DNA from: Candidatus Methanomethylophilaceae archaeon
GTDB taxonomy: Archaea; Thermoplasmatota; Thermoplasmata; Methanomassiliicoccales; Methanomethylophilaceae
Assembly (NCBI GenBank): GCA_017519045.1
Contig: JAFWTC010000016.1
Span: 1 to 64,000, forward strand
Reading direction: 5' to 3'
DNA length: 64,000 nucleotides
Shown here: positions 3,104 through 61,911 of the stretch, in pieces
Layout of the letters: every line of letters begins with the position of its first letter
Position numbering within the stretch: position 1 is the stretch's first letter
The notes under the pieces: generated by a model
What the model was told of the DNA's origin: nothing
Database searches by the model: none
What the model saw: only the letters and a program-made list of their open reading frames with translations
Made by a program: the position numbers and the translations under genes

Positions 3104-4489
3104 TCATCGGGCGGATTGCTGGGCCTCGGCCGCGACCGCCCGCTCTATCTTCCTGAACTCCCTGACGGCGAATCCCGTCAGGCAGAACGCGCCGAACATG
3201 TGGACGGCGACCATGGAGTAGATGATTCCCTCGAAGGGATCGACTCCCATGTACCCGTAGGCGGCGATCGCATAGAGGCCGAGCTTAACGACCCCCCACA
3301 GCATGTAGTAGTACATGGGGATCTTCGCCTTCTTCATGGTCTGGAGCATGGACGACGCCACTCCCATCATAGCGCTGAACGGGATCAGCAGAACGGCGAC
3401 CTGAAGGGTCCACACGAACATGGGAAGCAGCTCATGCATGGACTCCTCCGTGGTCATGACCGACATGAAGGGCTCGGCGAACAGGTACAGGATTATCGAG
3501 AACACGATCCCGAATCCCACCACCAGCTTCGTCGAATAGATGAATCCCGTCTTCATCTTCTCCAGGTCCCTTACGCCGTAGGCCGCGGAGCAAACCGGCA
3601 TCATGGCCATGTCGACGGACCTCGCCGGAAGCTGGACCATGCCGATGTACCTCCAGGCGTAGTTGTAGAACATGACCGCGGGGGTGCCTCCGGCGATGAT
3701 CAGGAATATCCTCTGAAGGAAGTCGGTGAGGTTGGATATCATCATCTGGACGGTCTTCGGGCCCCCCACCCCCAGGACCTCGGCCATGGCGGCCTTGTCG
3801 GGGTGGAACGTTGAACGGTTCACCTTGATGACGGTCTTGCCTGAGAAGTACCAGCGAAGCGCGAAAAGCACGGCGATGGACGCGGATATGACGGTGGAGA
3901 GGCCGGCTCCCAGAACCCCGAGGCCGAGCCAGTATATCATTATGGGATCGAATACCATGTTCAATATCGCCGAAAGGGACTGGATGACCGTCGACTTCTT
4001 GGCCGCGCCCTCGGCCCTCAGCATCCCGCCGACTATGGATATCAGTATGACCGACGGCGACAGGAGGATGTAGGGGATCATATAGCGTATGGCCTCGCCG
4101 CGGACGTCGTCGGCGCCCATGACGTCTATGACCGGATTGATGAATATCGCGACCAGGATCGACGCGGCGACGGCGAAGATCAATCCGAGGATGAGCGAGT
4201 TCGAAGCCAGCCTCCCTGCGTCGTCATACTCCCCACGGCCGAGGCGATACGCCGCCGTGGTGGTGATTCCCGCGGACACCCCCAGCCCGGCGCACATCAT
4301 CAGCCCATAGAGGGGAACGATGGTGGACACCGCGGAGGCGGACTGCGCACCCAGGCCCGAAACCCAGTAGGTATCGACGAACTGGTTGACCTCGACCACC
4401 GCCAAGGCCACCAGGAACGGCAGGATCATGTTCCTGATCGCCGCCTTGGGCTCTCCCAGCATCTTCTGCAGGTCGCTTTCCTTGCTCAT
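3104..4489 (-). CDS. MATE family multidrug/Na+ antiporter
   Basis: 461 aa integral membrane protein with about twelve hydrophobic segments in two six-helix halves. The N-terminal stretch with NQFVDTYWVSGLG is typical of archaeal MATE exporters. TATA-like GGTTATATG on the minus strand (4511-4521) lies 27 bases before the ATG, so it has its own leaderless promoter. The last sense position is a CGA (3107-3109) directly before TGA, the only CGA in the frame; if CGA terminates here the protein ends in QQSA and the TGA is a backup stop. A paralogue lies at 28645-30009. Confidence 0.9.
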   Translation of the reverse strand: MSKESDLQKMLGEPKAAIRNMILPFLVALAVVEVNQFVDTYWVSGLGAQSASAVSTIVPLYGLMMCAGLGVSAGITTTAAYRLGRGEYDDAGRLASNSLILGLIFAVAASILVAIFINPVIDVMGADDVRGEAIRYMIPYILLSPSVILISIVGGMLRAEGAAKKSTVIQSLSAILNMVFDPIMIYWLGLGVLGAGLSTVISASIAVLFALRWYFSGKTVIKVNRSTFHPDKAAMAEVLGVGGPKTVQMMISNLTDFLQRIFLIIAGGTPAVMFYNYAWRYIGMVQLPARSVDMAMMPVCSAAYGVRDLEKMKTGFIYSTKLVVGFGIVFSIILYLFAEPFMSVMTTEESMHELLPMFVWTLQVAVLLIPFSAMMGVASSMLQTMKKAKIPMYYYMLWGVVKLGLYAIAAYGYMGVDPFEGIIYSMVAVHMFGAFCLTGFAVREFRKIERAVAAEAQQSAR

Positions 4490-4532: not shown

Positions 4533-6434
4533 TCGCCTTCTCCTGTACCTCAGGGCGCGGGAGGAGTTCAACACCGCGGCGATCATCACGCCGACGTCGG
4601 CTATGATGGCCAGCCACATGTTGACCACTCCCACGGCCGACAGGCCCAGGAAGAGGAACTTGATCACCAGGGTGCCGACGATGTTCTGGCGGATTATCCC
4701 CATGGTCTTGCGGGAGATGCCCATGGCGGTGGCGATCTTCCTCGGGTCGTCGTCCATGATGACCACGTCCGAGGCCTCTATGGCCGCGTCGGAGCCTATG
4801 GCGCCCATGGTTATCCCGATGTCCGCCCTCACCAGCGACGGGGCGTCGTTGATCCCGTCTCCGACGAAGGCGACCTTGCCGGATTCATGGCCTTCCAGGA
4901 TCTTCTCGAGGTGCTCGAGCTTGTCCCCGGGCAGAAGCCGGCTATGGACCTCGTCCAGGCCTACCTCCCCGGCGACCTTCCTGGCCACCTCGTCCGCGTC
5001 TCCGGTCAGCATGACCGTCCTCCTAATTCCGGCCGCCTTGAGGTCGGCCATGGCCTTGCGGGACTCCTTCTTGACGACGTCCGATATCGTTATCGATCCG
5101 GCGTAGTCCCCGTCCACGGCCACGTGGACCATCGTGCCCTGGACGGCTCCCTCCTCGATGGACAGCCCCAGGTGCTCCATGAGCCTCCTGTTCCCCACCG
5201 CTACGGGAACCCCGTCCACCTTGGCCACGACCCCCTTCCCGGGGATGTCCTCTATGTCGGAGACCCTGGAGCGGTCTATGTCCATGCCGTGGGCGCGGAC
5301 CAGGCTGGCGGCTATGGGGTGAGGAGAAGACGTCTCCGCGGCGGCAGCCAGCTCTATGAGCCTCTCGCGGGGTATGGTCTCGCTCATGACGTCGGTGACC
5401 TCGAATACCCCCTGGGTGAGCGTCCCGGTCTTGTCGAACACCACCGTGTCGACCTCGGACAGCATCTCCAGGTAGTTAGAGCCCTTTATCAGGACGCCCT
5501 CCCTGCTGGCTCCGCCCAGTCCGGCGAAGAATCCCAGAGGGATGCTGATGACCAGCGCGCAGGGGCAGCTGATGACCAGGAAGGTGAGCGCGCGGTATAT
5601 CCAATCCCGATAGTCGAGGTCGAGCATGCCGGTGAAGGCCAGTATCGAAGGGACCACGGCGAGGAGCAAGGCGCACGCCACGACGAACGGGGTGTAGACC
5701 TTTGCGAACCTGGTGATGAATGCCTCGGACTTGGACTTCCTGCTGCTGGCGTTCTCGACCATGTCGAGAATCTTCGACACCGTGGACTCCCCGAACTCCT
5801 TGGTCGTCTCTATCTTCAGCACGCCGGACAGGTTTATGCATCCGCTGAGAACCTCGTCCCCAACCATGACGTCGCGGGGGATGCTCTCCCCAGTGAGGGC
5901 GGAGGTGTTGAGGGAGGACGAGCCTTCCGCGACCACACCATCGATGGGTATCCTTTCGCCGGGCCTCACCACGATGACGGTGCCGACCTCCACCTCGTCC
6001 GGGTCGACCTCCACCAGCTCGCCGTCCTCCTCGACGAAGGCGGAGTCGGGACGTATCTCCATCAGCTTGGAGATGCTGGCCCTGCTGCTGTCCACGGCGA
6101 TGGACTGGAAGAGCTCGCCTATCTGGTAGAAGATCATGACCGCGACGGCCTCATCGTAGTCGCCGGTGTACGTGACGCCGAGGATCATCGCCCCTATCGT
6201 GGCTATCGCCATCAGGAAGTTCTCGTCAAGAGCCTGGCCGTGCCTTATCCCCTTGGCTGCCTTTATCAGAATGTCGTAGCCGATTATGACATAAGGTATG
6301 AGGAAGAGGAAGAACTTGGCCTCCTTCTCGTAATCTCCGTAGTCTATAGGCAACAACGCGAAGACCGCCGTCAGGATCGCCGCCGCGATAATCCTGTAGA
6401 GCATCTTCTTCTGCTTCTTTCTGAGCTGAACCAT
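4533..6434 (-). CDS. Heavy-metal P1B-type ATPase (CadA/ZntA-like, Zn2+/Cd2+ export)
   Basis: 633 aa metal pump. Visible motifs are the membrane metal site SCPCALVIS, phosphorylation site DKTGTLT, SSPHPIA, GDGINDAPSL and the ADVGV segment of the last helices, pointing to Zn2+/Cd2+ rather than Cu+. There is no N-terminal HMA domain. The start is ATG 6434 with GGAG 8 bases upstream; GTG 6440 is possible. The family C-terminus is reached at ...RALRYRRR, where the next codon is CGA (4533-4535). If CGA were Arg, the frame would stay open for about 100 more codons out of phase across the MATE promoter and coding start, to 4224. I take CGA as the stop. Confidence 0.88.
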
Positions 6435-6961: not shown

Positions 6962-6970
6962 GATATTAAC
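6962..6970 (-). promoter_or_regulatory. TATA box of the VOC gene
   Basis: GTTAATATC on the minus strand, 27 bases before the ATG at 6939. It fixes the start there instead of at in-frame ATGs further upstream. Confidence 0.55.
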
Positions 6971-7845: not shown

Positions 7846-7910
7846 ATACATGCCCATATGCTCCATGAATCAGTGGCAGACAAAAACCCCAGACCCTTGA
7901 AAATAAGATA

Positions 7911-7920
7911 ATTATAAATA
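7911..7920 (+). promoter_or_regulatory. TATA box of tRNA-Asp
   Basis: ATTATAAATA about 30 bases upstream of the mature tRNA 5' end. Confidence 0.6.
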
Positions 7921-7945
7921 TCAGTTCGATGTATGCGGTTTTGTT

Positions 7946-8018
7946 GCCCTGGTAGTGTAGTGGCCTATCATAAAGCCCTGTCGAGGCTTTGACACGGATT
8001 CGAATTCCGTCCAGGGCG
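7946..8018 (+). tRNA. tRNA-Asp (anticodon GUC)
   Basis: A 73-base cloverleaf. The acceptor stem GCCCTGG pairs with CCAGGGC, with G as discriminator base. The anticodon stem AAGCC/GGCTT encloses loop CTGTCGA, anticodon GTC. The T arm is ACGGA-TTCGAAT-TCCGT. CCA is not encoded and no intron is seen. A T-run follows at 8027-8032. Confidence 0.95.
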
Positions 8019-8026
8019 CTCATCCC

Positions 8027-8032
8027 TTTTTT
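8027..8032 (+). terminator. Oligo-T terminator after tRNA-Asp
   Basis: Six T residues shortly after the tRNA 3' end, the usual archaeal termination signal. Confidence 0.5.
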
Positions 8033-8077
8033 CATTCCTCTCTCCTTGAGTCATACTTTTTGGAATTGTCGTGCTAA

Positions 8078-8086
8078 CGATAAATA
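8078..8086 (+). promoter_or_regulatory. TATA box of the importer operon at 8.1 kb
   Basis: CGATAAATA centred 27 bases before the ATG at 8110; leaderless spacing. Confidence 0.5.
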
Positions 8087-8109
8087 GTGGATTAAGCTTA
8101 GACCGTCCA

Positions 8110-9201
8110 ATGAATACGAAAACAATGCTGGCCATCGCATTCGCCATTCTGGCGGCCTGCATCGTCACTCTGCCCGCCTCCGATGCGGGCGGCGGCTTCG
8201 AGATAACCGACGGAACCGGCAAGACGTTCGCCTACGACGGCGCCGCAGAAAGAATCGCCCTCAACGGGTCCGCAGTGGCGCTTACCGTCGCCCAGGCCGG
8301 CGCCGTGGAGAAGATCGCCGCGGTCGACAAGTACTCCACCTACGAGTACACGAAATACGCCGACCTCAAGAACCTCGACGCGGCGGATCTGGGAAGCTTC
8401 TACGGGAGCACGAACCACGACTACATCGTCACTACCCTGGTCAAGATGGTGGAGGAAGGCAAATTCGCCAAAGACGACACCGTCATCCTCACGTCCTACA
8501 CCAGCAACAAGGACCTCCGCGACAAGTTGGAAAGCCACGGATTCTCCAAGGTGCTAGTCTGGAACACCATCGACGACTACTCCCAGCTCGTGAAGATGGT
8601 CGAGGACGTTTCCAAGATCGCCACTGGCGGGATCCCGGCATCCGTCGAGAAGATGAAGGAGAAGGTCGCCGCGGTGGAGAAGAAGGCCGCGGAGCACAGC
8701 GGATCCGACAGGCCCAAGGCGCTCTACGTCTGGTACTACAACAAGGAGTTCCAAATCGGCAACCTCGGGATCATGAAGTCCATGCTGGACGTCTGCAAGG
8801 CGGACAACATAGGATACGACCCGTCCAACCCCGAGTACAGGTACGGCGACGCCGCGACCGTGGTCAAGCTCCTGGAGAACAACAAGGACGCCGTGGTCTT
8901 CGTATCCAACAGCTACTTCAGCTCCGGCAGGTCCCTCGACAACTTCTACGAAGAGGTCTTCAAAGGAGATAGGTCAGTCAAGGCCGTGGCGATGGGACTC
9001 CAGTGGAACAACTGGTGCCCCGAGTCCGCGGACGGCCTCACCGCCATCGCCGACGCCCTGTATCCCGATGTCCCGCCTCAGCCCGAGCCGGAGCCCGAGA
9101 AGAAAGGGTTCGACATCGACATGAGGATAGTCGGAATCATCATCGTCGGCCTCCTCTTCATCGCAGCCGGGGTCGCCCTGATGTTCAGAGGCAAGCACTG
9201 A
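8110..9201 (+). CDS. Membrane-anchored ABC importer substrate-binding protein (FepB/BtuF type)
   Basis: 363 aa. An N-terminal signal peptide (hydrophobic residues about 5-22) leads to a class III binding fold of about 290 residues with an early TDGTGKTFAYDG strand. A Pro/Glu linker (QPEPEPEPEK) and a C-terminal transmembrane helix (about residues 335-358) then hold it on the outer face of the membrane. It heads an operon with a FecCD permease and an ATPase, so it probably captures an iron chelate or corrinoid. The ligand cannot be read from the sequence. Confidence 0.82.
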   Translation: MNTKTMLAIAFAILAACIVTLPASDAGGGFEITDGTGKTFAYDGAAERIALNGSAVALTVAQAGAVEKIAAVDKYSTYEYTKYADLKNLDAADLGSFYGSTNHDYIVTTLVKMVEEGKFAKDDTVILTSYTSNKDLRDKLESHGFSKVLVWNTIDDYSQLVKMVEDVSKIATGGIPASVEKMKEKVAAVEKKAAEHSGSDRPKALYVWYYNKEFQIGNLGIMKSMLDVCKADNIGYDPSNPEYRYGDAATVVKLLENNKDAVVFVSNSYFSSGRSLDNFYEEVFKGDRSVKAVAMGLQWNNWCPESADGLTAIADALYPDVPPQPEPEPEKKGFDIDMRIVGIIIVGLLFIAAGVALMFRGKH

Positions 9202-11063: not shown

Positions 11064-11411
11064 ATGCGTTGGGTGATCCGCAGCAAGATCCACAGGGCGA
11101 CCGTCACCGAGGCCCGCCTTGACTACGAGGGCAGCATCACGATCGACGAGGACCTTGTCGACAGGGTGGGGATATGGATCGGCGAGAAGGTCACCGTCGC
11201 CGACGTGGACAACGGCAGCCGGTTCGAGACCTACGTCCTCCCCGGGGAGCGCGGATCCGGAATCATCGCCCTCAACGGGGCCGCCGCCCGCATGTGCTCC
11301 GTCGGAGACAAGGTCATCATAATGGCATTCGAGCTCACCGACGTGCCCATCCACGCCAAGGTCGCGCTCGTCGACAAGGACAACAAGGTCGTGAGGGACC
11401 TGGTGTACCGA
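11064..11411 (+). CDS. panD: Aspartate 1-decarboxylase, pyruvoyl-dependent (PanD)
   Basis: 115 aa. PanD makes beta-alanine for coenzyme [11 protein letters not shown]-like [11 protein letters not shown] is the N-terminal signature, the self-cleavage site is the Gly-Ser of EGSITID (residues about 23-24), and [15 protein letters not shown] matches the family. PanD is mainly bacterial; archaea usually make beta-alanine with a PLP enzyme (MfnA-type), so transfer is likely. The family C-terminus is at VVRDLVY, followed by CGA (11409-11411), which overlaps the RNase H ATG as CGATG, mimicking the common TGATG. With CGA as Arg it would run 23 codons further inside the RNase H gene. Confidence 0.9.
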
Positions 11412-11809
11412 TGTACACCGTCTACACCGACGGCGGCTCCAGGGGGAACCCGGGGAAATCCGCCTACGGGGTCGTCGTGACCCTCGACGGAAAAGTGGTG
11501 TGCGAGGCCTCCGAGTTTCTGGGAGTGCACACCAACAACTACGCCGAATACCGCGGCCTCATCGCGGGGATATCCAAGGTCCTGGAGCTCGGAGGGAGGA
11601 AGGCGGAGTTCGTGATGGACTCCCAGCTGGTCATAAGGCAGATGACCGGCCAGTACAAGGTCAGGTCCCCGGACATGATCCCCCTCCACGAAGACGCGCG
11701 CGCGTTGGCGTCGCTGATCCCGGAGGTGTCCTTCAGGAACGTCCGCAGATCGGAGGAGCTCATCCCCAGGGCGGACGCCCTTGTCAACGCGGTTCTAGAC
11801 AGAAACCGA
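11411..11809 (+). CDS. rnhA: Ribonuclease HI
   Basis: 132 aa type 1 RNase H that removes RNA from RNA-DNA hybrids. The catalytic acids are in [28 protein letters not shown] and the C-terminal RADALVNAV. The start overlaps the panD end by one base. The domain ends at ...AVLDRN and the next codon is CGA (11807-11809), followed at once by the TATA box of the next gene. If CGA were Arg, the frame would continue to 12691, about 294 codons through the ATPase gene in the wrong phase. This is one of the clearest cases for CGA as a stop. Confidence 0.9.
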
Positions 11810-16106: not shown

Positions 16107-17255
16107 ATGAAATCCAGGTCCTATGCCATTTTGGCCGGCGTGCTGGTAATAGCGGTCTTCGGAAGCGTATTCGCATCGTGCTTCTGGCATTCGGATTCCC
16201 CGGAGGAGGGATATTCCGTAACCGGCACGGTGACAGGGCTCAGCTCCTACAACCAGCCCAAGCTCGACATAAGGGCCGACGACATCTTCGAACAGGGGAT
16301 AGCCCTGGGCTCGCTCTTCGATATCAAGGCAGGGGACAGGGTATTCGAGGACGCCATCCTCCTGAACAACTATCTGGGCACATTCATGTTCGACAAATTC
16401 GTCAACGTGGAGTCGGACGGATACATATCGATAGGATGCGTAGGGAAGCTGATATCGGTCCCGGAAGGCTCCTCAGTGACCCTTACATACTCCGGGACGT
16501 CCGATAGGTACCAGAAGACGCCTCTTTATAATTCAGGATCCACCGACGTCAGAGGGGATTACGCTTCGGACGAGGTGTTCGCCAACTTCTACGAGGTCAC
16601 GGGAGGGGACATCAAAGTCGGCGTGCTGTACAGGTCGTTCAGCCCGCTGTACTCCCCCGAGAAGCAGACGAGGTCGGCTTACGTGGACGACCTGGCTGAA
16701 AAGGCCGGGGTGGAGTACCTCGTAGCCCTCTCCTATAGCGACGATTCGGTGAAGAAGGCCGCCGAAAGCCTCGACGGCTACTGCGCCACGCTCTGCAAGG
16801 AAGGGGATTACGTCGCGCCCGCGATGGGATACCTGTATTTCCAGGAGAAGGGGAAGACGGTGTCGACGCTCAAGGGCATAATGGACAACGACGGCCCCTA
16901 CCTCGTCCACTGCAACGTCGGCAGAGACAGGACCGGATTCGTCGTCCTGCTGCTTCAATCGTTGTGCGGCTGCTCCGTGGACGAGATGAAGGAATGCGAA
17001 TCCAGAGCGTTCTGCAACCTGTACCATATCGAGGAGGGGTCCCCGGAGCACGAGACGGTCAAGTACTGCACCTACGACAGGAACATGTTCCTCATCGCCA
17101 ACCCCGACAGGATACCGGACATATTCGACATCGCCTGGGACCGCATAGACGTGAGCTCGGTCGATCCCTATTCCGCGGCGTATTCCTATTGCACCGGATA
17201 TCTGGGACTCACGGACGACGAGGTGCTGAAGATCAAAGAGAGGCTGTGCTCCTGA
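16107..17255 (+). CDS. Extracytoplasmic tyrosine/dual-specificity-type phosphatase
   Basis: 382 aa. An N-terminal membrane helix (about residues 6-26) is followed by about 120 residues of beta-rich extracellular region and a phosphatase domain (about 145-380). The P-loop VHCNVGRDRTG has the Cys-x5-Arg catalytic signature, and LYRSFSPLY resembles the upstream substrate loop of Tyr_phosphatase3-type enzymes. The catalytic domain should face outside, which is unusual. The target (phosphoprotein, inositol phosphate or another ester) is unknown. Confidence 0.78.
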   Translation: MKSRSYAILAGVLVIAVFGSVFASCFWHSDSPEEGYSVTGTVTGLSSYNQPKLDIRADDIFEQGIALGSLFDIKAGDRVFEDAILLNNYLGTFMFDKFVNVESDGYISIGCVGKLISVPEGSSVTLTYSGTSDRYQKTPLYNSGSTDVRGDYASDEVFANFYEVTGGDIKVGVLYRSFSPLYSPEKQTRSAYVDDLAEKAGVEYLVALSYSDDSVKKAAESLDGYCATLCKEGDYVAPAMGYLYFQEKGKTVSTLKGIMDNDGPYLVHCNVGRDRTGFVVLLLQSLCGCSVDEMKECESRAFCNLYHIEEGSPEHETVKYCTYDRNMFLIANPDRIPDIFDIAWDRIDVSSVDPYSAAYSYCTGYLGLTDDEVLKIKERLCS

Positions 17256-17287
17256 GCATCCCCACGGCAACAGCTGGAAGCATAGTA

Positions 17288-17299
17288 AGACTATAGTCT
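17288..17299. repeat. Palindrome AGACTATAGTCT in a convergent intergenic gap
   Basis: Perfect 12-bp palindrome between the phosphatase and hisS ends. The core GACTATAGTC recurs at 21054-21063 and nearly at 31348-31357. Confidence 0.5.
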
Positions 17300-17316
17300 A
17301 ACCAAGGAGGGGGGGT

Positions 17317-18594
17317 TCACTGAGCCTGCCTGATCTCCCTGGGAAGGTCTCCGACCTCCACGGTCTTCTGCTCTCCGGAACCCATGTCCCTGAGCGTGGC
17401 CGCGCCGGCCTCCATCTCCTTCGCCCCGACTATGACGGCGTACCTGGCCCTCACTGCGGAGGCGTACTTCAGAGCCTTCGCCATCTTGCGGCCCGCGATG
17501 TCCACGTCGGCGGATATACCCTCGCGACGGAGCATGGCTGCGATCTCCGCAGCCTTCAGCCTCATGTCGTCGGTGACGGAAAGGACGTAGGCGTCGATCC
17601 CCCTGGGAACGTATTCCTGCCCCTCCTTCTCGGCGGCCAGGAGTATCCTGTCGAATCCGACCGCGAACCCGGTGGAGAACACCTTCTCGCCTCCGAAGAG
17701 CTCGGAAAGGGTGTACGATCCGCCTCCGCAGATCTGCTTCTCCGCGCCCAGCGCAGGGGCCTCGGCCTCGAACACCATTCCCGTGTAATAATCGAGCCCG
17801 CGGACCACCCCGAGGTCTATCTCCGGGGTCTCCACGCCCATGGCTTCGAGGAACGATACGACCTTCCTCAGGTAGTCCCCGACCTCTCCGGGAACCTTGT
17901 CGAGTACCTCCGGGCCGCCCACGGTCTCGGTGAGGTCGAATATGCCGTCGATTTCCGCGGCGGACACGCCCATCTCCTCCATCAGGGGGCGGGCCTCCTC
18001 GTAGAGCTTCTTGTCCAGCTTCTGAAGGACCTCGGCGGCCCTGTCGGCGGGAACCCCGGCGTCGGCTATCCTCTGCCTGAGGACGCCTATGTGGCCTATG
18101 CGTATCCTGTACTCCTTGAGCCCGAAGGCCTTGATCATGGAGGCCGCCATGGCTATGGCCTCGGCGTCCGTCTCCGGCCTGGCCCCGTTCTTGTACTCGG
18201 GATTGGCGCTCCCGATGATCTCCGCCCCGAACTGGAAGAACTCCCTGTACCTGCCGCTCTGGGGCCTCTCGTACCTGAAGCACTGGCCGAAGTAGAATAT
18301 CTTGATCGGCTTGGGGTCGTTGCTCATGCCGTTGACGAACATCCTGACGGCCGGAGCGGTCATCTCCGGACGGAGGGCGATGTCCCTGTCCCCCTTGTCC
18401 TTGAATGCGTACAGCTCCTTCAGGACGTTCGGCCCGGACCTGAGTATGAACAGCTCCGCATCCTCGAAAATGGGGGTCTCGACCTCCCTGAACCCGAACG
18501 TGAGGGCGACATGCCTGAGCCTGTTCTCATAGAACCTGCGTTTCTCCATCTCGTCCGGAAGGAAGTCCCTCGTACCGCGCGGACACTGAATCAT
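17317..18594 (-). CDS. hisS: Histidyl-tRNA synthetase
   Basis: 425 aa class II synthetase. Motif 1 region begins CPRGTRDFLPDE; motif 2 contains FRYERPQSGRYREFFQFG; the His-binding LDYYTGMVFE and motif 3 GFAVGFDRIL follow; the C-terminal anticodon-binding domain is about 325-425. The TATA box ATTATATAAC on the minus strand is 27 bases from the ATG (leaderless). Stops at TGA. Confidence 0.96.
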   Translation of the reverse strand: MIQCPRGTRDFLPDEMEKRRFYENRLRHVALTFGFREVETPIFEDAELFILRSGPNVLKELYAFKDKGDRDIALRPEMTAPAVRMFVNGMSNDPKPIKIFYFGQCFRYERPQSGRYREFFQFGAEIIGSANPEYKNGARPETDAEAIAMAASMIKAFGLKEYRIRIGHIGVLRQRIADAGVPADRAAEVLQKLDKKLYEEARPLMEEMGVSAAEIDGIFDLTETVGGPEVLDKVPGEVGDYLRKVVSFLEAMGVETPEIDLGVVRGLDYYTGMVFEAEAPALGAEKQICGGGSYTLSELFGGEKVFSTGFAVGFDRILLAAEKEGQEYVPRGIDAYVLSVTDDMRLKAAEIAAMLRREGISADVDIAGRKMAKALKYASAVRARYAVIVGAKEMEAGAATLRDMGSGEQKTVEVGDLPREIRQAQ

Positions 18595-18615
18595 GCGCTC
18601 CCGATTGCGGAGGCC

Positions 18616-18625
18616 GTTATATAAT
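18616..18625 (-). promoter_or_regulatory. TATA box of hisS
   Basis: ATTATATAAC on the minus strand, 27 bases upstream of the ATG at 18594. Confidence 0.6.
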
Positions 18626-18726
18626 TGTCCAAGACCGACGGCTTGCCCTTATCGTATTTACCAACCTTAATCCAATGGGAAAAAGGTAAAGAGCCTGACC
18701 AATGTAAACTGACAAGAGGAGACACG

Positions 18727-18906
18727 ATGCCGACTTCAACGGACTACAAGGACCTCGTCATTGACACGCCGGAGGCGGCGGCTGCTTTCGAATCCTTGTT
18801 CAGAGACTACAAGCCGTACAAAAAGAAGAAAGACCCCAGAATAAAGGAAGCCGATGCGGAATTCATGCGCCTCGTCGCCCTAGACTGCGGATACAAGGAA
18901 AAATGA
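18727..18906 (+). CDS. Small protein paired with a truncated acetyltransferase
   Basis: 59 aa, charged, with a Lys-rich middle (YKPYKKKKDP). GAGGAGA about 7 bases upstream sets ATG 18727, and the stop overlaps the next gene as ATGA. In bacteria and phages small genes of this sort precede GNAT-type acetyltransferases in toxin-antitoxin-like pairs; by position it could be the antitoxin-like partner. I do not recognise a DNA-binding motif. Confidence 0.55.
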   Translation: MPTSTDYKDLVIDTPEAAAAFESLFRDYKPYKKKKDPRIKEADAEFMRLVALDCGYKEK

Positions 18907-19103
18907 CCTCATCAGCCTTAGACGCATACAACATAGTCCCGCTTTCATCGTTCTTGGACACATACGGCATGAACACGTCCCAGACGTTGCTAGATAGATT
19001 CGTACCCCTGATCGATGCTCCTGCCTCTGATTATCTCAGAAAACATGCTATATTCATGGAGAAACACGACCTGTCAAGAACCTGCATGATGAGGTTCATC
19101 TAA
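18903..19103 (+). pseudogene. Truncated GNAT-like acetyltransferase remnant
   Basis: 66 aa. The pattern LDTYGM...DRFVPLIDAPASDYLRKHAIFMEKHDLSRT resembles the N-terminal portion of small phage-type GNAT acetyltransferases, which reads roughly ...FLxxxAIxFEKxxLSRTYL. The acetyl-CoA-binding core that should follow (about 100 more residues) is absent in all frames before the thrS promoter, so the gene is probably decayed. The similarity is judged by eye and weak. Confidence 0.45.
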
Positions 19104-25994: not shown

Positions 25995-26708
25995 ATGGTC
26001 GAACAGAAGGAGATCATAGGCGACTACTGGTCGCAGAGGTCCGAGGGATTCTCTGAATACGTCATGGAACATTTGGACGAAGACGTCCAAGGGCTATACC
26101 TGAAAACCGTGCTGTCCTATGCCGAAGGGAAGAAGTTGAAGGTCCTGGACGTCGGATGCGGACCTGGTCTCTTCTCCGTCGTCCTCGGGCGCGAGGGGCA
26201 CGACGTCACCGCGATAGACTACTCGGACGGGATGATCGCCAAGGCCAGGCAGAACTGCGCCGAGGCCGGCGTACCCGCCAACATCATGAAGATGGACGCC
26301 CAGAGCCTGGAATTCGAGGACGGGACGTTCGACCTCGTCGTCTCCAGGAAGGTGGTGTGGAATCTTCCCGATCCTGTCCGCGCATACAAGGAATGGCTCA
26401 GGGTGCTCAAGTCCGGAGGCAGGATGATCCTGTTCGACGGCAACTACTTCCTCGGCATGCACGACGAGGATTACAAGCGCAGCGTCCCCTTCGCAAACGG
26501 GGAGGACAACGGGACCTACCAAGGCGCCGACCCCTCCATCCTCCTGGGATTCGCCAAGGACCTGCCGCTGAGCAAAGCCAGGAGGCCGCAGTGGGACGTC
26601 GGCGCGCTGACGGAGCTGGGGGTCGACCGCGTGGAGGTCCTCATCGACTCGAGGCGCGAGGAGAGCGGCCTTCCGGACACGTTCGTCATCACCGCCTGCA
26701 AGGACCGA
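25995..26708 (+). CDS. SAM-dependent methyltransferase (class I)
   Basis: 237 aa. Motif I VLDVGCGPGLFS, the acidic strand-2 end VTAIDYSDGM, and MDAQSLEFEDGTFDLVVSRKVVWNL are the SAM-binding elements. First gene of an operon with a FecCD permease, ATPase and MATE pump. It ends at FVITACKD, followed by CGA (26706-26708); the paralogue at 30467 aligns throughout and ends FILTVSKQL then TGA. If CGA were Arg, this frame would run out of phase through almost the whole permease gene to 27875. It may modify a chelator or corrinoid taken up or exported by its neighbours. Confidence 0.88.
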
Positions 26709-26709
26709 G

Positions 26710-27855
26710 GTGGACGCCGTGCTCGAAGAAAACCAATCCACGTCCGGGACCAGCCCCCTCGTGGCAGGCCAGGTGTCGGAATGGCTCAAGCCCGTCGACA
26801 AGAAAGAGTTCGACGAGTCCATGAGCGGGTTCCGCAGGTTCGTGATCAGAAAATACGCGTTCATCGGCTTCTGCATCCTCGCATGCTTCGTGGCCGCCGG
26901 CCTGTCAATCGGATTCGGGACGTACTCCATCTCCTTCTGGGACACCTACGTGACGATATGGAACCACATCACCGGGAACATCCAGGACGTCATCGAGGAC
27001 ATAGTCGTGGTCCGCGACCGTCTCCCCAGGGTATGCTTGGCCGTGCTCGCCGGAGCGGGCCTGGCCGTCGCCGGAGCCGGGATGCAGAGCATCCTGAAGA
27101 ACCCCCTAGCCGAGCCTTACACCACCGGCGTGTCCTCCGGAGCCATTTTCGGGGCCTCGCTCTCGATAGTGTTCGGGTTCAGCCTCTTCGGGGGCGACTA
27201 CGCCCTCATCGGCAACGCGTTCGTGTTCTCCCTCATCCCCGTGGCGTTCATCCTGATGATCAGCAAGATGAAGAACGCCTCTCCGACGACCATGATCATG
27301 GGCGGGATCGCGGTCATGTACATCTTCAACGCCATGACGACCGTCATCAGGCTCTGGTCGGACCCGGACAGCCTATCCGCCCTGTACGCCTGGGAGGTCG
27401 GGACCCTGGGCTATGCCAAGTGGGACAACCTGGTCCTGATGCTCCCAATCACCGTGTTCGGGATCCTGGCGATCTGGGCCCTGTCCAGGCAGCTGAACGT
27501 CCTCTCCACCGGGGACGAGAACTCCCGCACCCTCGGAGTAGACGCCGAACGCCTCAGGATAATAGTCCTGGTGGTCGTGGCGTTCATGACCGCGGCCATC
27601 GTGAGCTACGTCGGACTGATCGGATTCGTGGGGCTGGTGGCTCCGCACGTGGTCCGCATGGTGATCGGCGCGGACAACAGGTTCCTGATACCCGCCAGCA
27701 TCGCCTTCGGAGCCGCAGTGCTCCTGCTGGCCGACCTAATCGGAAAGACGATAATCGCTCCCGCCACCATCCAGGTGGGAGTCATAATGGCGTTCCTCGG
27801 AGGACCCATGTTCATATGGCTCCTGGTGAGGAAGAACACCAAGGTATGGGGATGA
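26710..27855 (+). CDS. FecCD/BtuC-type ABC importer permease
   Basis: 381 aa. It starts with GTG one base after the CGA ending the methyltransferase, with GAGG overlapping the start region. An N-terminal hydrophilic stretch of about 55 residues, then ten helices with KNPLAEPYTTGVSSGA and VGLIGFVGLVAPHVV. There is no binding protein in this operon; it may share one with the divergent operon. Confidence 0.9.
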   Translation: MDAVLEENQSTSGTSPLVAGQVSEWLKPVDKKEFDESMSGFRRFVIRKYAFIGFCILACFVAAGLSIGFGTYSISFWDTYVTIWNHITGNIQDVIEDIVVVRDRLPRVCLAVLAGAGLAVAGAGMQSILKNPLAEPYTTGVSSGAIFGASLSIVFGFSLFGGDYALIGNAFVFSLIPVAFILMISKMKNASPTTMIMGGIAVMYIFNAMTTVIRLWSDPDSLSALYAWEVGTLGYAKWDNLVLMLPITVFGILAIWALSRQLNVLSTGDENSRTLGVDAERLRIIVLVVVAFMTAAIVSYVGLIGFVGLVAPHVVRMVIGADNRFLIPASIAFGAAVLLLADLIGKTIIAPATIQVGVIMAFLGGPMFIWLLVRKNTKVWG

Positions 27856-27859
27856 TCGC

Positions 27860-28642
27860 ATGGAACTGGTCGTGAAGGATCTGGACTTCGGGTTCGGAGA
27901 CGGCAGGAACGTGCTCCAATCCATAAGCCTGAGCATAGACAAGCCGGGGCTGTACTGCATAATCGGCCCCAACGGGGTGGGTAAGTCGACCCTGGTTCGC
28001 TGCATCAACAAGATCTACAAGGTCCCGGACGGGAAGGTGTTCGTGAACGGGAAAGACATCAACGAGATCTCCATCAAGGAGAACGCCGGGAACATGGCCT
28101 ACGTCCCGGTGGGAGGCGATGACCTGTTCGCCCTCACCGTCGTGGACACCATCCTCATAGGAAGGCACAACCAGAGCGGGTGGAAGACCAGCGAGGAGGA
28201 CCTGGAGACCGTCTACAAGTCCATGAAGCTCATGGGCATCGAGGAGCTCGGCATGAAGCACTACAACGAGCTGTCGGCCGGCCAGCACCAGAAGGTCGCC
28301 ATCGCCCGCGGGCTGGTACAAGGGACGGACTTCATAATCCTGGACGAGCCTACCGCCAACCTCGACGTCCGCTACCAGATATACGTCACCGAGCTCCTCA
28401 AGGAGCTGGCCGTGCGCTCGGGGATGACCGTGCTGATGATCAGCCACGACCTCAACATCACCGCACGCTACGCCGACGAGGTCATCGTCATGGCCCGCCC
28501 TGGGGTGATCCACTCCATGGGCAAGCCGGAGGACGTGATAACCGAGGACATGATCCGCGAGGTGTACGGGGTCGACTGCGACGTCATAGACGCCAAGGGG
28601 AAGCCGCACATCATACTGGGGCCGGCGCTGAGGATCGATTGA
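27860..28642 (+). CDS. FecE/BtuD-type ABC importer ATPase
   Basis: 260 aa. Walker A GPNGVGKST, signature LSAGQHQKVAIARG, Walker B FIILDEPTANLD, H-loop SHD. Third gene of the 25995-30009 operon and a close relative of the ATPase at 21093. Confidence 0.93.
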   Translation: MELVVKDLDFGFGDGRNVLQSISLSIDKPGLYCIIGPNGVGKSTLVRCINKIYKVPDGKVFVNGKDINEISIKENAGNMAYVPVGGDDLFALTVVDTILIGRHNQSGWKTSEEDLETVYKSMKLMGIEELGMKHYNELSAGQHQKVAIARGLVQGTDFIILDEPTANLDVRYQIYVTELLKELAVRSGMTVLMISHDLNITARYADEVIVMARPGVIHSMGKPEDVITEDMIREVYGVDCDVIDAKGKPHIILGPALRID

Positions 28643-30034: not shown

Positions 30035-30463
30035 ATGCCCGAGATGAATGACGACCTTTTCATTTTCCATGCCAAGACGAGGTCATACATCATCCCACGC
30101 CTGTCCAAAGCGCTCGAAGGAAGGCCCATCATGGCGTCCGAGGTCTCCGCGATGATCATCGTGAACGACTTTCCCGGATGCAACATCAAGGACATATGCC
30201 TGAGGATCGCGGCGGACAAGGGCGCCATGACGAACCGCATCAAACGTCTAATTGAGATAGGGATGATGGAGAACAGGTCCGAAGGAAGGGCGTACAGCCT
30301 CTATCTGACTGAAGCGGGGCAAATCGAGCACGATTACGCCCGCAAGGAGCTGAAGAAGCTCAACGACGCCTTGCTGATAAACCTCACCGACCGCCAGAGG
30401 GAGACCCTGGCCAAGCTGATGGCTAAGATCTCCGACGTGGCGGACCTCGGGTACAGATACTGA
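30035..30463 (+). CDS. MarR-family transcriptional regulator
   Basis: 142 aa winged-helix protein. Helix-turn-helix about residues 47-68 (CNIKDICLRIAADKGAMTNR), wing RSEGRAYSLYLTEAG, and helices at both ends for dimerisation (TDRQRETLAKLMAKISDVA). It has its own leaderless promoter between two loci carrying the ACTTGA-N4-TCAAGT palindrome, so it is the best local candidate for binding it. The signal is unknown. Confidence 0.85.
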   Translation: MPEMNDDLFIFHAKTRSYIIPRLSKALEGRPIMASEVSAMIIVNDFPGCNIKDICLRIAADKGAMTNRIKRLIEIGMMENRSEGRAYSLYLTEAGQIEHDYARKELKKLNDALLINLTDRQRETLAKLMAKISDVADLGYRY

Positions 30464-30466: not shown

Positions 30467-31255
30467 TCACAGTTGCTTCGAGACCGTGAGGATGAAGGTG
30501 TTAGGCAGGCTCACAGTCTCTCCGTCGCGCTCGGTCTCGAAGAAAGTGTCGATATCCACACGCACGCTCTTGGCTCCCAACTCGGTCAGAACGCCCACGT
30601 CCCATTGAGGACGCCTCTCCCTGCTCAGGGGAAGCCCCTCGGCTATGCTGTTGAGGACCGCCGGATCCCCGCCCTGGTTGTAAGCGGTGCCGACCTCGGC
30701 CTCCTTCCTCATCTTCTCGAACTCGGCCTTGCGCTCTGAGAACTGCTTCTCCGCGTTGGCCTTGTACTCGTCGTCGTACATCCTCAGGAAGTAGTTGCCG
30801 TCGAACAGGATCATCTTCCCGTCGTCCTTGAGGACCCTCAGCCACTCCTTGTACGCACGAACGGGATCGGGAAGATTCCACACGACCTTCCTGGAAACGA
30901 TAAGGTCGAAGGTACCGTCCTCGAACTCCAGGTTCTGGGCGTCCATCTTGATTATGTTCGCGGGTACGCCGGCCTCGGCGCAGTTCTGCCTGGCCTTGGC
31001 GATCATCCCGTCCGAGTAGTCTATCGCGGTGACGTCGTGCCCGTCCTTTCCGAGCACCATCGAGAACATCCCAGGGCCGCATCCGATGTCGAGGACCTTC
31101 ATCTTGCGGATCCTGCTGAACTCCCTTATCCTTGAGAAATAAAGCTTGTTCTCGTCTCCGTCCAGATGCTCCAGCATGTATGCGGAGAAACCCTCCGACC
31201 TGGTGGTCCAGTAGTCCCCGACTGCTTCGAGACCCTTGTCCTTCTGCCCGTCCAT
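30467..31255 (-). CDS. SAM-dependent methyltransferase (class I), paralogue of the 26-kb enzyme
   Basis: 262 aa. Motif I VLDIGCGPGMFS, then VTAIDYSDGMIAKARQNCAE, a stretch identical in the paralogue at 25995. An insertion of about 25 residues (KQFSERKAEFEKMRKEAE region) distinguishes it. It ends SKQL with TGA and so marks where the paralogue should end. Single gene under a palindromic operator that touches its ATG; convergent with marR. Confidence 0.9.
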   Translation of the reverse strand: MDGQKDKGLEAVGDYWTTRSEGFSAYMLEHLDGDENKLYFSRIREFSRIRKMKVLDIGCGPGMFSMVLGKDGHDVTAIDYSDGMIAKARQNCAEAGVPANIIKMDAQNLEFEDGTFDLIVSRKVVWNLPDPVRAYKEWLRVLKDDGKMILFDGNYFLRMYDDEYKANAEKQFSERKAEFEKMRKEAEVGTAYNQGGDPAVLNSIAEGLPLSRERRPQWDVGVLTELGAKSVRVDIDTFFETERDGETVSLPNTFILTVSKQL

Positions 31256-34824: not shown

Positions 34825-35925
34825 TCGCCTCTTCACTATTATGCAGAGGACGTCCTCGTCCTGCACCTTGTGGTCCATCCCGACGGTCTGACCCGGGAAC
34901 TTGGCGCTCTTCCCCCAGACCATCGCGTACCTGAAGTTGTTCTTGAAGTCCCTGTGGATCAGCTCGCAGACGTCGCCAACGGTGTTCCCGCGCTTGACGA
35001 TCAGCGGGATGTCCATATCCGCCTCCTGGCCCTGCGGCTTGAGATAGATGCGGATCATGTCGATTGTTTCGTAAATCGCCTGCTTTAGCTCCTCCATCCC
35101 GTAGCCGGTGGCGGCGGACACGGGGACGTTGCGGTACTGCTTGTGCATCTCCTGCACAGCCTCCAGCTGTCCCGGCCTGGCCAGGTCCACCTTGTTGATG
35201 GCCATGACCGCCTTGATGTAGACCCTGTTTCCGGCCAGCACGTCCAGCATCTGCTCCACGTCGATGTCCTCGCGGACGACTATGGTCGCGTTGATGTGTC
35301 CGTAGGCGGCGGCCATGTCCCTGATGGTCTCCACGTCTATCTTGGTCAACTTGAGGGTGGGCTTCACTATCAGCCCGCCGTGGTCCCCGGGGGTGATCAC
35401 CACGTCCGGCTTCTTCTGGTTCAGGCGGATGGCGGCGTTGTAGAGCTCCTTGAACAGGACGTTCATGTTCGGATTGAATATGTCCACGACCAGGAGGATC
35501 ACGTCCGCGGACCTTGCGGCGGCGATGACCTCCCTCCCCCTTCCCTTTCCGCGGGAGGCGTCCTTGATCAGGCCGGGCATGTCCAGGATCTGGATCTTGG
35601 CGTGGTTGTACTCCATCACTCCCGGAACCACGTCCAGGGTGGTGAAATGGTAGGCGCCGACCTCGGACTTGGCTCCGGTCAGCTGGTTCAGGAGGGTGGA
35701 CTTTCCCACGGACGGGAATCCCACCAGGGCGACGGTGGCGTTCCCCGCCTTCTTCACGTAGAATCCCTTGGTGGGGCCTTTGGAGGAGCGTCTCTTCTCC
35801 TCCTCCTCATTGAGGCGGGCGATCTTGGCCTTGAGCTTCCCTATGTGGGCCTCTGTGGCCTTGTTGTACTTGGTCTTGGAGATCTGCTCCTCCAATTCCT
35901 TGATCTGCTCCTCGATGGTCGCCAT
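34825..35925 (-). CDS. DRG-family GTP-binding protein
   Basis: 366 aa OBG/DRG GTPase. Helical N-terminus, G1 GFPSVGKST, G3 DMPGLI, G4 NKVDL and a C-terminal TGS domain (about 290-366). DRG proteins bind ribosomes or translation factors. GGAGGAGGGAG precedes the ATG and TATA-like AATAAATACC lies upstream. The TGS domain ends CIIVKR, followed by CGA (34825-34827) and the terminator hairpin; with CGA as Arg, 20 residues encoded by the terminator would be added. Confidence 0.93.
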
Positions 35926-40671: not shown

Positions 40672-40818
40672 GAAAGACGAATCCGCGACGGGATAGATAA
40701 CGGTTGGCGGGCATATCCGACACTACGAAGACATGGAGCGTACGGTTGCATACAGCCAGGATGCCGCATCGACGGCAGTTGGAATTCTTTTCCTAGAAAA
40801 CGAAAGCATTCGGGAAAG

Positions 40819-40827
40819 TCTTTTACC
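40819..40827 (+). promoter_or_regulatory. TATA box of the acetyltransferase gene
   Basis: TCTTTTACC, 27 bases before ATG 40850. Confidence 0.5.
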
Positions 40828-40849
40828 AGAACCGCCTCTCGCTCCCTCC

Positions 40850-41386
40850 ATGTCCGAAGAGAAGATCCTTGCAGCGGACGACCCCTCCTTCAAGGAAATG
40901 GACACCCAAGCCAGGGAGGCCCAGAGGATCACCGCCGTCATCAATACGGGATACCACGAAGAATCCGAGCTGAAGGCGCTGATGGAGAAGCTTACCAACA
41001 AAAAAATCCCGGAAGGGTTCCGCCTGTTCCCCCCGTTCTACACCGACCACGGCAGGAACATCACGTTCGGAAGGAATGTCTTCGTCAACTCCGGCTGCTG
41101 CTTCCAGGACCAGGGAGGCATCACGATAGGCGACGGCTGCCTCATAGGCCACCAGGTCGTCTTCGCCACGATAGACCACGGCCTTGATCCTGATCACAGA
41201 CAAGACCTGATAATGTCCCCCATAGCCCTCGGAAAGAACATCTGGGTCGGATCGCATGCCACAATCCTAAGAGGAGTCACCATAGGTGACGATTCCGTCG
41301 TGGCCGCAGGAGCCGTAGTCACCAAGGACGTCCCTCCTCGGACCGTGGTCGGAGGCGTCCCCGCCAAGATAGTCAAGACCCTGCGA
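40850..41386 (+). CDS. Maltose/galactoside O-acetyltransferase-like (LacA/Maa family)
   Basis: 178 aa. Left-handed beta-helix hexapeptide repeats (ITIGDGCLIGHQVVFATIDH, VTIGDDSVVAAGAVVTKDV) with the catalytic His in ATIDHGLD. The family terminus GGVPAKIVKTL is followed by CGA (41384-41386) and, within 12 bases, by the TATA box of the next gene. With CGA as Arg the frame would run 15 codons through that promoter to TGA 41434. Start ATG 40850 is leaderless. Acceptor unknown. Confidence 0.88.
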
Positions 41387-51314: not shown

Positions 51315-53333
51315 ATGCCTGCAGGACGTTCGGGGACCTCGAAGACCGATGCTCCAGCGGACGCCATGACGGTCAGGGGCCACGTCCTGGACAGACAGCA
51401 GACCTCCGCCGTGAAGGACCGCTCCCCCACCCAGCTGGTCATCGCGGGAGCCGGGACCGGGAAGACCACCACGCTGATCGGGAAGGTCAAGCACCTGGTC
51501 GAGCGCGACGGCGTGGACCCGAAGAGGATTCTTCTCATATCGCTGACGAACAACTCCGTGGCCGACCTCAGGAAGGCGGTGGACGCCGAGTTCGGGACGG
51601 GGTTCCCTGCGGACGTCATGACCATCCACGCCCTCGGGAACCGCATCCTCCGCAAGAAGCCGTGCATCGGGTCCCAGAAGGCCAAGCTCATAGGGCGCCT
51701 CTGCGACGAGCTCGTCCAGACCGACCGCAGGTCCGCCGAGGCGATGATGACCTACATCGAGGGGCTCAGGCGCACTTCGTATTCTTATCTTTCATACAAC
51801 GGCAAGAGCATCGGGAACAGGGGCCTCAGGACCGTGGCGGACGCCCTGTTCAGATGCGGGATCGACTGCGACTACACCCGCCCAATCTATTCGGAGACGG
51901 ATTCGAAGCCGGGGTTCATCTCCGTGGACGACAAGAAGGGCCTCTCGTTCAGGATATACGCGGACGACCCCGCGGTCTCCGCCGCGTCCAAGGATCCGGA
52001 GGAGGCCTGGAGCGTCATAAGGGCGAAAGGCGTGAAGGCCAAGCCCGTGAACGTCAACGACCTGGCCTCCAACGTGATGCAGGCCTGGGGGGACAAGGTT
52101 CCGGAGTCCCTCGGGAGCCTCATATCCAGATGCAAGTGCACCGGGATGAGCATCAAGGCCCTCCTCCGCGCCAACGGGCGCAACGACACCGCCGCCCGCC
52201 CGGACGCCGAGGCCAAGATCCGCCTGCTGGACAGGGTCTGGGACATGTACTCCATGACCTGCGCCGAGGGGGACCTGGCCGACTACGAGGACATGGTCAT
52301 CCAATCCGCAGGGATCGTCCGCAGGGGAGGGTTCCCGGGGAAGCGCTACGACGCCGTCCTGATCGACGAGTACCAGGACGTCTCCAGAATACTGGTGGAC
52401 CTCGTGATGGCCCTCAGGGGGGCGATGGGGTTCCGGCTGTTCTGCGTGGGCGACGACTGGCAGAGCATCTACTCCTTCAGCGGAGGGGACATCTGGCAGA
52501 TGTTCGACTTCGAGAGGATCTGGAAGGACTGGGGCCCGATCAAGGTCTCCAGGATCGAGAAGACATACAGGTCCCCGAGGCAGATAGTGGACATGACCGG
52601 CCGCTTCGTGTCCAAGAACCCGTCCCAGCTCAAGAAGAGCATCAAAGGCATCCCGGGCCCCAGGACGCCTCCGGTGCAGCTTCTGACGGTCTCCTGCGAC
52701 AAGGAGGTGGCGAAGGCGATAGCCAACCGCCTCGAATACGTGGAGAAGGACGCGTCCGTGTTCATAATCGGGCGCACCAGGAGGGACCTGTACGTCCTCG
52801 GATACGGCGACGGCCCGTTCGCCTTCTCGTCGGGGGACAGGGATTCCGGGTCCGTCGACCTGGTCTACCGCGAATACGACGAGACCACCAAGGAGTGGAC
52901 CCCCGTCAGGACGCTCCGCTACCTCACCGCCCACTCCTCCAAAGGCCTGGAGGCGGACTACGTGTTCGTGATCGCCGACAGGGAGCGCGGAGGGTTCCCG
53001 AACGACGTCGAGGACGACATGAGCGTGCTGTTCGCCGGCCGCGGGGAGGGGATCGAGCACGCCGAAGAGCGCAGGGTGTTCTACGTCGCCATGACGAGGG
53101 CCAGGAAGCGCCTGTTCCTCGTCAACAGGACCTCTGACGGGACCGCGTTGTCATCCGACTCGCCGTTCATGGGCGAGATAATAGCCGACAACGAGGGCAT
53201 GCTGGAGAAGTCCACGCCCGTCTGCCCGCTGTGCTCCGGGCCGATGATGATCCGCGACTCTCCCAGGAGGCCATTCTACGGATGCGTCAACTACCCCGTA
53301 TGCAAGGGGACGAGGCCTTTCAAGGGGCTGCGA
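51315..53333 (+). CDS. UvrD/Rep-type superfamily 1 helicase with C-terminal zinc finger
   Basis: 672 aa. Motif I GAGTGKTTT, motif II DEYQD, Q-x-IYSFSG (motif III), TYRSP (motif IV), HSSKGLEAD (motif V) and VAMTRARKR (motif VI). The C-terminus is a topoisomerase-type zinc finger (CPLCSG...YGCVNYPVCKG) ending FKGL, then CGA (53331-53333). Beyond it the frame has a second CGA 16 codons on, AT-rich codons and TAA at 53409, unlike the gene body. Role in DNA repair or restart. Confidence 0.9.
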
Positions 53334-59805: not shown

Positions 59806-61911
59806 ATGAGCAAGACGACGGTCCACCCTTCGGATTCCTTCAAAGACACGCATGAGGCGACAGACCTTCTGCAGAGCGTCGGAAGGTACTGGAGGTACGG
59901 CGGGACCGAGTGCGAATACGTTCCCAGCCTTCTGCTGCATCCCACCTACCGCGAGCTGGAGTGGAAGCGCCTCAGGTACTACCTCTACTGGCGCCAGAGG
60001 GCATTCGAGGGGGAATACCTGGATACCGACGCGGGATACGTCTGGCTGCACTGCGTGGAGCTCATAACGGTCGACGACGACCCCTTGGAGAACATGAGGT
60101 GCCTCATCGGGATGAGGGACGCCTATCTCGAGCAGGACCCCGCGGTGGACTCCATACTTGGTGCCGCGTGCGCATACTACGCCACCGTCATCGGCTACTA
60201 CAAGAGGGACTTCAAGCTCATGTCCGCCAGCCAGAGGTGCGTGAGGATATGCGGCGTGCTCTCCGACAGAGGATGTGTACCGCTTTCGGCGAGGGACCTG
60301 AAGCATCTGATTCCGCTTCGCGGACGCAAGAGCGCCGAGGTACTGAAGGCTTTAGGCACTATAGTCTCATCAGCGCTCCACGAGATCGGACGGCAGCAGA
60401 ACGGGATACTCCGCCTATGCAGGAGGCAGATCGAGTTCGCCCTCCGCTTCCCCTTCTCCTCGGACATGTCCACATACGGGATGAAGAGCCTGTACGTGAA
60501 ATGCGAGGACCCCAGGGAATCGGAGCAGTTCATGAACGTCTTCAAGGACGTATACAACGAATGCGACGCGGTCCTTTCAGGTAAAACAGAAAAAGCCGGC
60601 GGAAAGTACGGCCCGCTTCTGAACAGGTGCATCGACGCCTACAGGAACGGAAGGCTGAATCCGGAGCCCTACGACAAATACGGTATCCCTATAGTCTTCA
60701 ACAGGGTGTCCTACCACGCGTCCTCCGACTCCTACCAGCCTCCCGAGAGGGACGGGACGTGGCCCAGCCACAGGTTCCAGAGCAGGATGAGGGAGTACGG
60801 CGGGATCCCCACGCCGCCGTCGGAGTTCAGACGCCCCCCGAGGACCAGGATCCCCTGCTACTCCACCATGACGCTGGACGAGTACATCGGCTACCAGTCG
60901 TGGAAGAACGGCGTCCTGAAAGGGGAGAAGACCGAGAAGGCTGACGGATACGCGTGGCTCCTGGCGAACGAGATAATCAACGACGACACCTTGGACCCGG
61001 AATCCGCGCTGAGGATACTGGAGGAATGCGCGGACTCCCCCGGAGGCTGGCAGGGCGGCATCAGCGACGACGTCGTGGCCGACTGGTGCATTCTGCACGG
61101 ACTCTACTCACAAAAGATAAGCAAGAAGTGCGACAGCCAGAAGCTCTCGATCCTCACCGTACGCGCCCTCAGGTCGTTCCCTCCGCTTCCCTTGTCCAGG
61201 GAACAGATAGACCGCGCCTTGGTGAAGGACGCCGACGACGAGATTGCAGGCGCGGTGAACGCGGCCGTCCTGGCGGTGTACGAGGCGAACGGGGACCGCC
61301 TGGACAGGGCCGTGGACCTGAGCCTCTCGACGGCCGTGGTGAGGGTGTTCGAGGACTGCGCGGGGATGCCCGTCTCCGTCGATGCGGACGTCCCGTCGAA
61401 CCCCGGGGACGTCAACAGGTTCGTGACGTCCGTCTGCAGGATAGCCGAGGCCGTGATCTCCGGCGACAAGGACCCCAAGACGCCCGCCGGATTCGGGAAG
61501 GAGAACCGCAACGCGGCCGTCAAGGCCATGCTCCTGCATCTGGAGGAGGAGAGGCGCAAGGCCGCGTCGCCTTCCAAGGTCGCACTGGACATGGACGCGG
61601 TCAAGGCGGCGATGGACGACCTGGATGCGGTGACCGGCATGATGCGCGTCGACGATGGCGAGGAGCCTGAGGAAGAGCCCGCGGACGTCGCGGAAACGTC
61701 CACCGGCGACCCCTGGAAGGACCTGAGGTCCAGGCTGCAGCCGGACGCCTTGGAATATCTCAGGAAGTGCATGGACGGAACCCGCTTCGACAGCCTGAAG
61801 GAGAAGAAGGTAAACGAGGCGGCCATGGAAACGGTCGGAGACGCGGTCGTCGAGGACGGGACGGTCATAGAGGACTATGCCGACGACGTCGCTCGCCTGC
61901 TCTCCGAGCGA
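59806..61911 (+). CDS. TerB-domain protein, first gene of a Shango-like defence operon
   Basis: 701 aa. The N-terminal region with LRYYLYWRQRAFEGEYLDTD and a following YVWLHCVELI segment is typical of TerB_N proteins; the C-terminus (about 560-701) with acidic linker and ALEYLRKCMDG fits a TerB_C-like part. The frame is open upstream but contains CGA just before ATG 59806. It ends RLLSE then CGA (61909-61911), followed by LY and TAA within the next promoter-like TTATATTAA. Order TerB protein, ATPase, helicase matches Shango (SngABC). Domain calls are by eye. Confidence 0.7.

Follow-up and report, generated by a model that had tools for sequence, protein, structure and literature searches.

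The evidence strongly supports the reading that the archaeon from which this DNA derives uses CGA as a stop codon, and that the methyltransferase studied here is a normal 237-residue protein that ends just ahead of the permease start. The window, the whole stretch of 64,000 nucleotides that was analysed (contig JAFWTC010000016.1 of a Candidatus Methanomethylophilaceae archaeon), had been annotated beforehand from its letters. That preliminary description proposed CGA as the terminator of the methyltransferase, and the more general idea of termination at CGA is borne out both genome-wide and in alignments of orthologues. Beyond what was then proposed, ending genes with CGA is a trait of a clade, and the release-factor gene carries a single conserved in-frame CGA.

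Read directly, the codons before the permease are TGC (26697–26699), AAG (26700–26702), GAC (26703–26705) and CGA (26706–26708), with G 26709 as the sole base between CGA and the permease GTG (26710–26712), so that the ending first reported (CKD, then CGA, with the GTG one base on) is exact. Under translation table 11 the open reading frame spans 25995–27875 and encodes 626 residues. This is 389 codons past the methyltransferase with CGA included, in agreement with the roughly 390 out-of-phase codons estimated earlier. From CGA on, the frame is an arginine-rich, wrong-frame reading of the FecCD permease gene and of the first part of the ABC ATPase gene that follows. The Methyltransf_11 domain (PF08241) of the enzyme scores 96.6 bits against a cut-off of 21.2, which places it among class I SAM-dependent methyltransferases.

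The operon of methyltransferase and FecCD permease is widespread across the genus. Same-operon orthologues of the methyltransferase from 13 other genomes stop near the aligned place, 11 with TGA and 2 with TAA, typically as FFICVTK-TGA with the permease start adjoining, and none of the 13 has a C-terminal extension. This comparison upholds CGA as the terminator of the methyltransferase. The long stretches said to be common to this enzyme and its paralogue in the window were also confirmed: residues 6–236 align in BLASTP with 61% identity, and the SKQL-TGA end of the paralogue, correctly given before, lies two residues past the aligned end. A block of 352 nucleotides, inverted between the two genes (26133–26484 and 30754–31105), is 86% identical, which is above the overall similarity of the pair and looks like gene conversion.

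Table 1. Features of the window relevant to termination at CGA, with gene limits in brackets where the feature itself is the stop codon.
Feature	Position	Strand	Evidence or remark
CGA stop, MATE transporter (gene 3107–4489)	3107..3109	-	
CGA stop, P-type (E1-E2) ATPase (gene 4533–6440)	4533..4535	-	
CGA stop, aspartate decarboxylase (PF02261)	11409..11411	+	overlaps ATG of next gene as CGATG
CGA stop, 132-residue gene (11411–11809), RNase HI-like by eye	11807..11809	+	
SAM-dependent methyltransferase, 237 residues, CGA-ended	25995..26708	+	PF08241, E 1.4e-27; orthologue stops; coding score falls after CGA
CGA stop of methyltransferase	26706..26708	+	bases, orthologue stops, coding score
FecCD-type permease, begins 1 nt past CGA	26710..27855	+	PF01032, E 2.5e-88; gene order kept in 13 genomes
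MarR-like regulator, ends GYRY-TGA	30035..30463	+	G021 orthologue ends GYRY-CGA
Methyltransferase paralogue, ends SKQL-TGA	30467..31255	-	BLASTP alignment to the gene at 25995
CGA stop, DRG/Rbg-type GTPase (gene 34825–35925)	34825..34827	-	yeast Rbg1 alignment ends at CGA
CGA stop, hexapeptide-repeat transferase (gene 40733–41386)	41384..41386	+	
CGA stop, UvrD-like helicase (gene 51315–53333)	53331..53333	+	C-terminal zinc ribbon finishes 2 residues before
CGA stop, TerB_N-domain protein (gene 59203–61911)	61909..61911	+	

Nine genes of the window, the methyltransferase included, end in CGA (Table 1). In several of them a domain finishes just ahead of this codon, as in the aspartate decarboxylase, the DRG/Rbg GTPase, and the UvrD-like helicase. 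The 132-residue gene emerges when CGA is taken as a stop, and the overlap at its start is like the common TGATG. G021, a buffalo-rumen archaeon of the Methanomethylophilaceae (JAFZXW010000093.1; locus L009) and the nearest relative, has no counterpart of this methyltransferase copy ahead of the permease. Its MarR-like regulator has CGA in place of the TGA of the window, and its orthologue of the methyltransferase paralogue reads SKHV-CGA at the codon aligned to SKQL-TGA; these two endings were the first sign of a pattern wider than one gene. Swaps between canonical stops and CGA are found in both directions between orthologues of the source genome and its relatives.

CGA terminates coding throughout the source genome and not at single genes. 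A codon-usage score was trained on the source genome with CGA set neutral, and each codon that followed 45 coding-like in-frame codons was tested for continued coding; all genome-wide figures are samples, counted on stretches of contigs. Coding continued past CGA in 2 of 50 cases, compared with 5 of 118 for TGA and 1 of 12 for TAA. The lowest values for sense codons were those of AGT (12/26, or 0.46) and TTA (0.53), most being around 0.8. With codon models begun from a common start, CGA closed 51 of the 224 coding stretches for which a terminator was found (about 23%). For 140 kb held out of the training, continuation was 1/36 for CGA and 2/66 for TGA, and gene ends were distributed over TGA (80), CGA (33, about 28%), TAA (3), and TAG (3). 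When only stretches scoring above 40 were counted, those ending at CGA amounted to 47 of 231 in the source genome, 38 of 109 in G007 and 4 of 467 in the pooled low-use relatives.

A concatenated protein tree groups the high-use genomes in one clade, here called clade A, and places G007 on a separate branch. Clade A comprises the source genome (G000), G021, G013, G017, G020, G008, G012, G019, G023, and G024, some of which were placed on few residues. Genes with canonical stops were then used as queries and the target codon was read at the aligned stop column. CGA occupied this column in 22 of 337 cases in clade A and 8 of 61 in G007, as opposed to 0 of 564 in the remaining relatives (clade A versus the rest, Fisher p = 2.6e-10), a pool from which G014 (1/25), G026 (2/57), and G030 (0) were kept apart. 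About a quarter of the column consists of other sense codons, which reflect misalignment or genes whose ends lie a few residues apart. When only those sense codons are counted that have no canonical stop within the following 8 codons, CGA ranks first in clade A and in G007 and does not occur in the remaining relatives. Orthologues carry canonical stops where the clade carries CGA. Outside clade A, G014 (L311) and G026 (L312, L313) seem to have CGA ends at a frequency of about 0.11–0.16, with few confirmed cases and with Asp at site 44 of the release factor aRF1. A conserved gene end, ...FVDSH, is followed by CGA in G014, G000, G007, and G020 and by TGA in others. For genera outside the genus, CGA use was gauged from crude ORF counts.

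Inside the genes of the source genome, CGA occurs at 0.19, 17.8, and 63.1 per 1000 in frames 0, +1, and +2, respectively, and the same frame-specific avoidance was seen in G004 and G001. Because the avoidance is specific to one frame, it is a matter of translation and not of the DNA word, which argues against RNA editing and mutation bias. The few internal CGAs of the source genome come mostly from merged neighbouring genes, and one lies inside the aRF1 gene. Over 195,267 codons from 18 members of the genus in which CGA ends few genes or none, in-frame CGA was limited to the aRF1 codon and about one other plausible case, all others lying ahead of a start or at an end. In-frame CGA is about 0.2 per 1000 inside genes, mostly merged-gene artefacts, with the aRF1 codon and a few others persisting. 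Internal in-frame CGAs flanked on either side by coding signal were noted in a helicase gene (4651–8708; L082:7021, plus strand) and in a CobQ-like gene (L368, about 17219–19052, minus strand), where Gln would be expected at ICGGY[CGA]MMG; these may be truncations, errors, or readthrough sites.

A single full-length aRF1 gene is present in most genomes; in a few assemblies that are incomplete it is absent or cut short. Its codon 78 is an in-frame CGA in the source genome (...DSVAA[CGA]LKTYK...), and 25 of the 26 aRF1 genes of the genus that cover the site contain a single in-frame CGA, always at this position. The exception is G007, a high user of CGA stops, which has CGC at codon 78 and whose own aRF1 gene ends in CGA. 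In most of these genes the codon lies in a rare-codon context (GCT/TCT-CGA-CTC-AAA), and no other synonymous choice in the gene is conserved as strongly; a second stretch of marked synonymous conservation surrounds GGQ (codon about 185, CGT; GGA/GGT). The reading frame is the same and conserved on both sides of codon 78, and a programmed +1 frameshift at this codon was not found. The gene for bacterial RF2, prfB, is autoregulated by an in-frame UGA and a +1 frameshift (compare PMC12421855, PMC13245932). Like prfB, the aRF1 gene would carry, early in its frame, a codon that its own factor reads. However, aRF1 is unrelated, the codon is CGA, there is no change of frame, and the bypass would run through tRNA-Arg(UCG). 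Since the frame is unchanged, a working like that of prfB is possible, but aRF1 does not belong to the prfB type.

Several residues of aRF1 are candidates for a changed specificity: Met in place of Arg68 in the whole family, Asp44 to Glu, and NIKS to NIRS. For any one of them to be the cause by itself is doubtful. Glu is found at site 44 in all six clade A sequences with data and in G007, as opposed to Asp in 19 of 19 other sequences of the genus and in every match from other genera in a pattern search. The association is imperfect, as G014 and G026 combine a low level of CGA ends with Asp44, and in G008 the frequency of CGA ends fell from 0.18 to 0.03 (3/89) with more data despite its Glu44. 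NIRS replaces the near-invariant NIKS in the source genome (L145, G000:C4) and G013 (L157) only; it was rejected as the cause because G008, G012, G019, and G020 of clade A, as well as G007, keep NIKS, and it would be at most an addition. At site 68, this family has Met (once Leu), and the best-aligning solved aRF1 structures (4af1, 3agk) have Arg. In the human factor, Arg68 holds the NIKS loop. Simulations of eRF1 give a penalty of about 6 kcal/mol, exerted via Lys63, for C at the first stop position, which drops to 1–2 when Arg68 is lost (PMC5681627). Taken with these simulations, Met68 fits the hypothesis of a factor that was already tolerant of a first-position C.

A tRNA-Arg(UCG) is present in the source genome, apparently intact except for an A31.A39 mismatch, and in G001. 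An absence from G001 and others suggested by blastn was overturned when ARAGORN found the G001 copy, and absence by blastn therefore carries no weight. Among the copies examined (L125, L161–L179), clade A has A31.A39 and most other copies found by blastn have C31.A39, leaving an anticodon stem of 4 bp. Completed reassignments usually go with loss or alteration of the cognate tRNA; as it is kept here, the reassignment is at best incomplete. Since codon 78 of aRF1 must also be read as Arg at least some of the time, CGA is not a pure stop.

Our explanation joins these observations as follows. The single archaeal aRF1 would read CGA, which is UGA with C for the first U, moderately well across the genus and would compete there with tRNA-Arg(UCG). 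Such reading by aRF1 would have purged CGA from coding frames genus-wide, as we propose, and so made the codon available as a sensor in the aRF1 gene: plentiful aRF1 would end its own synthesis at codon 78, and when it is scarce the tRNA would read on. Retention of tRNA-Arg(UCG) is what this sensor would need. In a later step, clade A, and separately G007, would have adopted CGA as an ordinary terminator of genes. That CGA marks a true end of translation is close to certain. The explanation as a whole (CGA stop, reading by aRF1, feedback at codon 78, and later adoption by the clade) is very probably correct, and with nearly the same assurance aRF1 can be named as the reader of CGA. Autoregulation of aRF1 through codon 78 is likely. 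The broadest statement is made with somewhat more reserve, as more probable than not: a cellular, non-organellar lineage would have CGA as a fourth stop that its sole release factor recognises, the single conserved sense use in the genus would be the aRF1 sensor, and the sensor state would be the intermediate between sense and stop.

Alternative accounts of the CGA endings meet the same body of data. CGA could be unassigned, with ribosomes that stall and are freed by rescue of the Pelota/ABCE1 type and no true reading by a release factor. The lack of CGA in genes throughout the genus, even where it does not serve as a gene end, would suit such stalling; but a tRNA for the codon is present, CGATG behaves as a stop–start overlap, about a quarter of the genes, aspartate decarboxylase and the DRG GTPase among them, would depend on rescue, and rescue does not predict that the only conserved internal CGA should sit in the release-factor gene. 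We regard stalling as unlikely. In plant mitochondria, C-to-U editing converts CGA to UGA and thereby creates stops, and the likeness to the present case is a genomic CGA at gene ends. There the RNA is edited, whereas here the frame-specific avoidance points to a translational meaning; out-of-frame CGA is abundant inside genes, so that an editor would need to know the frame, and the sites are very many and have no evident common flank. The chance that editing explains the endings is accordingly slim.

The conventional reading, in which CGA is Arg and the methyltransferase truly carries an extension of about 390 residues, is slimmer still: table 11 leaves the frame open and tRNA-Arg(UCG) exists, but the extension, which none of the orthologues has, is a wrong-frame reading of a conserved permease, and the coding signal stops at CGA. 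A local accident, either a single stop-loss mutation or a T-to-C error of metagenome assembly, is conceivable in that CGA is one base from TGA and the assembly is in 86 contigs. With nine such ends in the window and about a quarter of ends genome-wide, and with this pattern recurring in other members of the clade, these counts rule it out, and we give it next to no weight.

Known code changes in cellular genomes, to our knowledge, turn a stop into an amino acid or exchange amino acids, and as far as we found, a change from sense to stop in a cellular genome is undescribed. Text searches returned no report of a CGA stop in archaea or bacteria, which is weak evidence, with preprints and most subscription papers outside their scope. 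Sense-to-stop changes occur in organelles, with UCA in Scenedesmus mitochondria, UUA in Thraustochytrium mitochondria, and AGR in vertebrate mitochondria; in these, too, a former sense codon ends genes, but the genomes are small, whereas here CGA is added to UGA and UAA without replacing them, in the cellular genome of an archaeon, about 1.9 Mb in size. Methanomassiliicoccales also have UAG for pyrrolysine, so that this order has another codon whose meaning is altered or twofold, although with the opposite direction (stop to sense) and a dedicated tRNA and synthetase. Reassignments of rare Arg codons, CGA included, were found in bacteria with Codetta: AGG to Met, CGG to Trp or Gln, and CGA with CGG to Trp in Absconditabacteria (PMC8629427). 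The CGA/CGG cases concern an amino acid in low-GC bacteria; in the present one the new meaning is stop and the host an archaeon with about 60% GC. Codetta chooses among 20 amino acids and left 218 archaeal codons uninferred (PMC8629427); given this choice, a new stop would show only as “uninferred.”

For the rumen and gut methanogens of this group, the finding means that gene ends are misannotated, about a quarter of them in the source genome, with false C-terminal tails of which some reach hundreds of residues. How release-factor specificity evolves also becomes open to test, within one clade that has sister genomes free of the trait and with few residues of one protein as candidates; an intermediate state is at hand as well, with CGA kept inside hardly any gene but that of the release factor.
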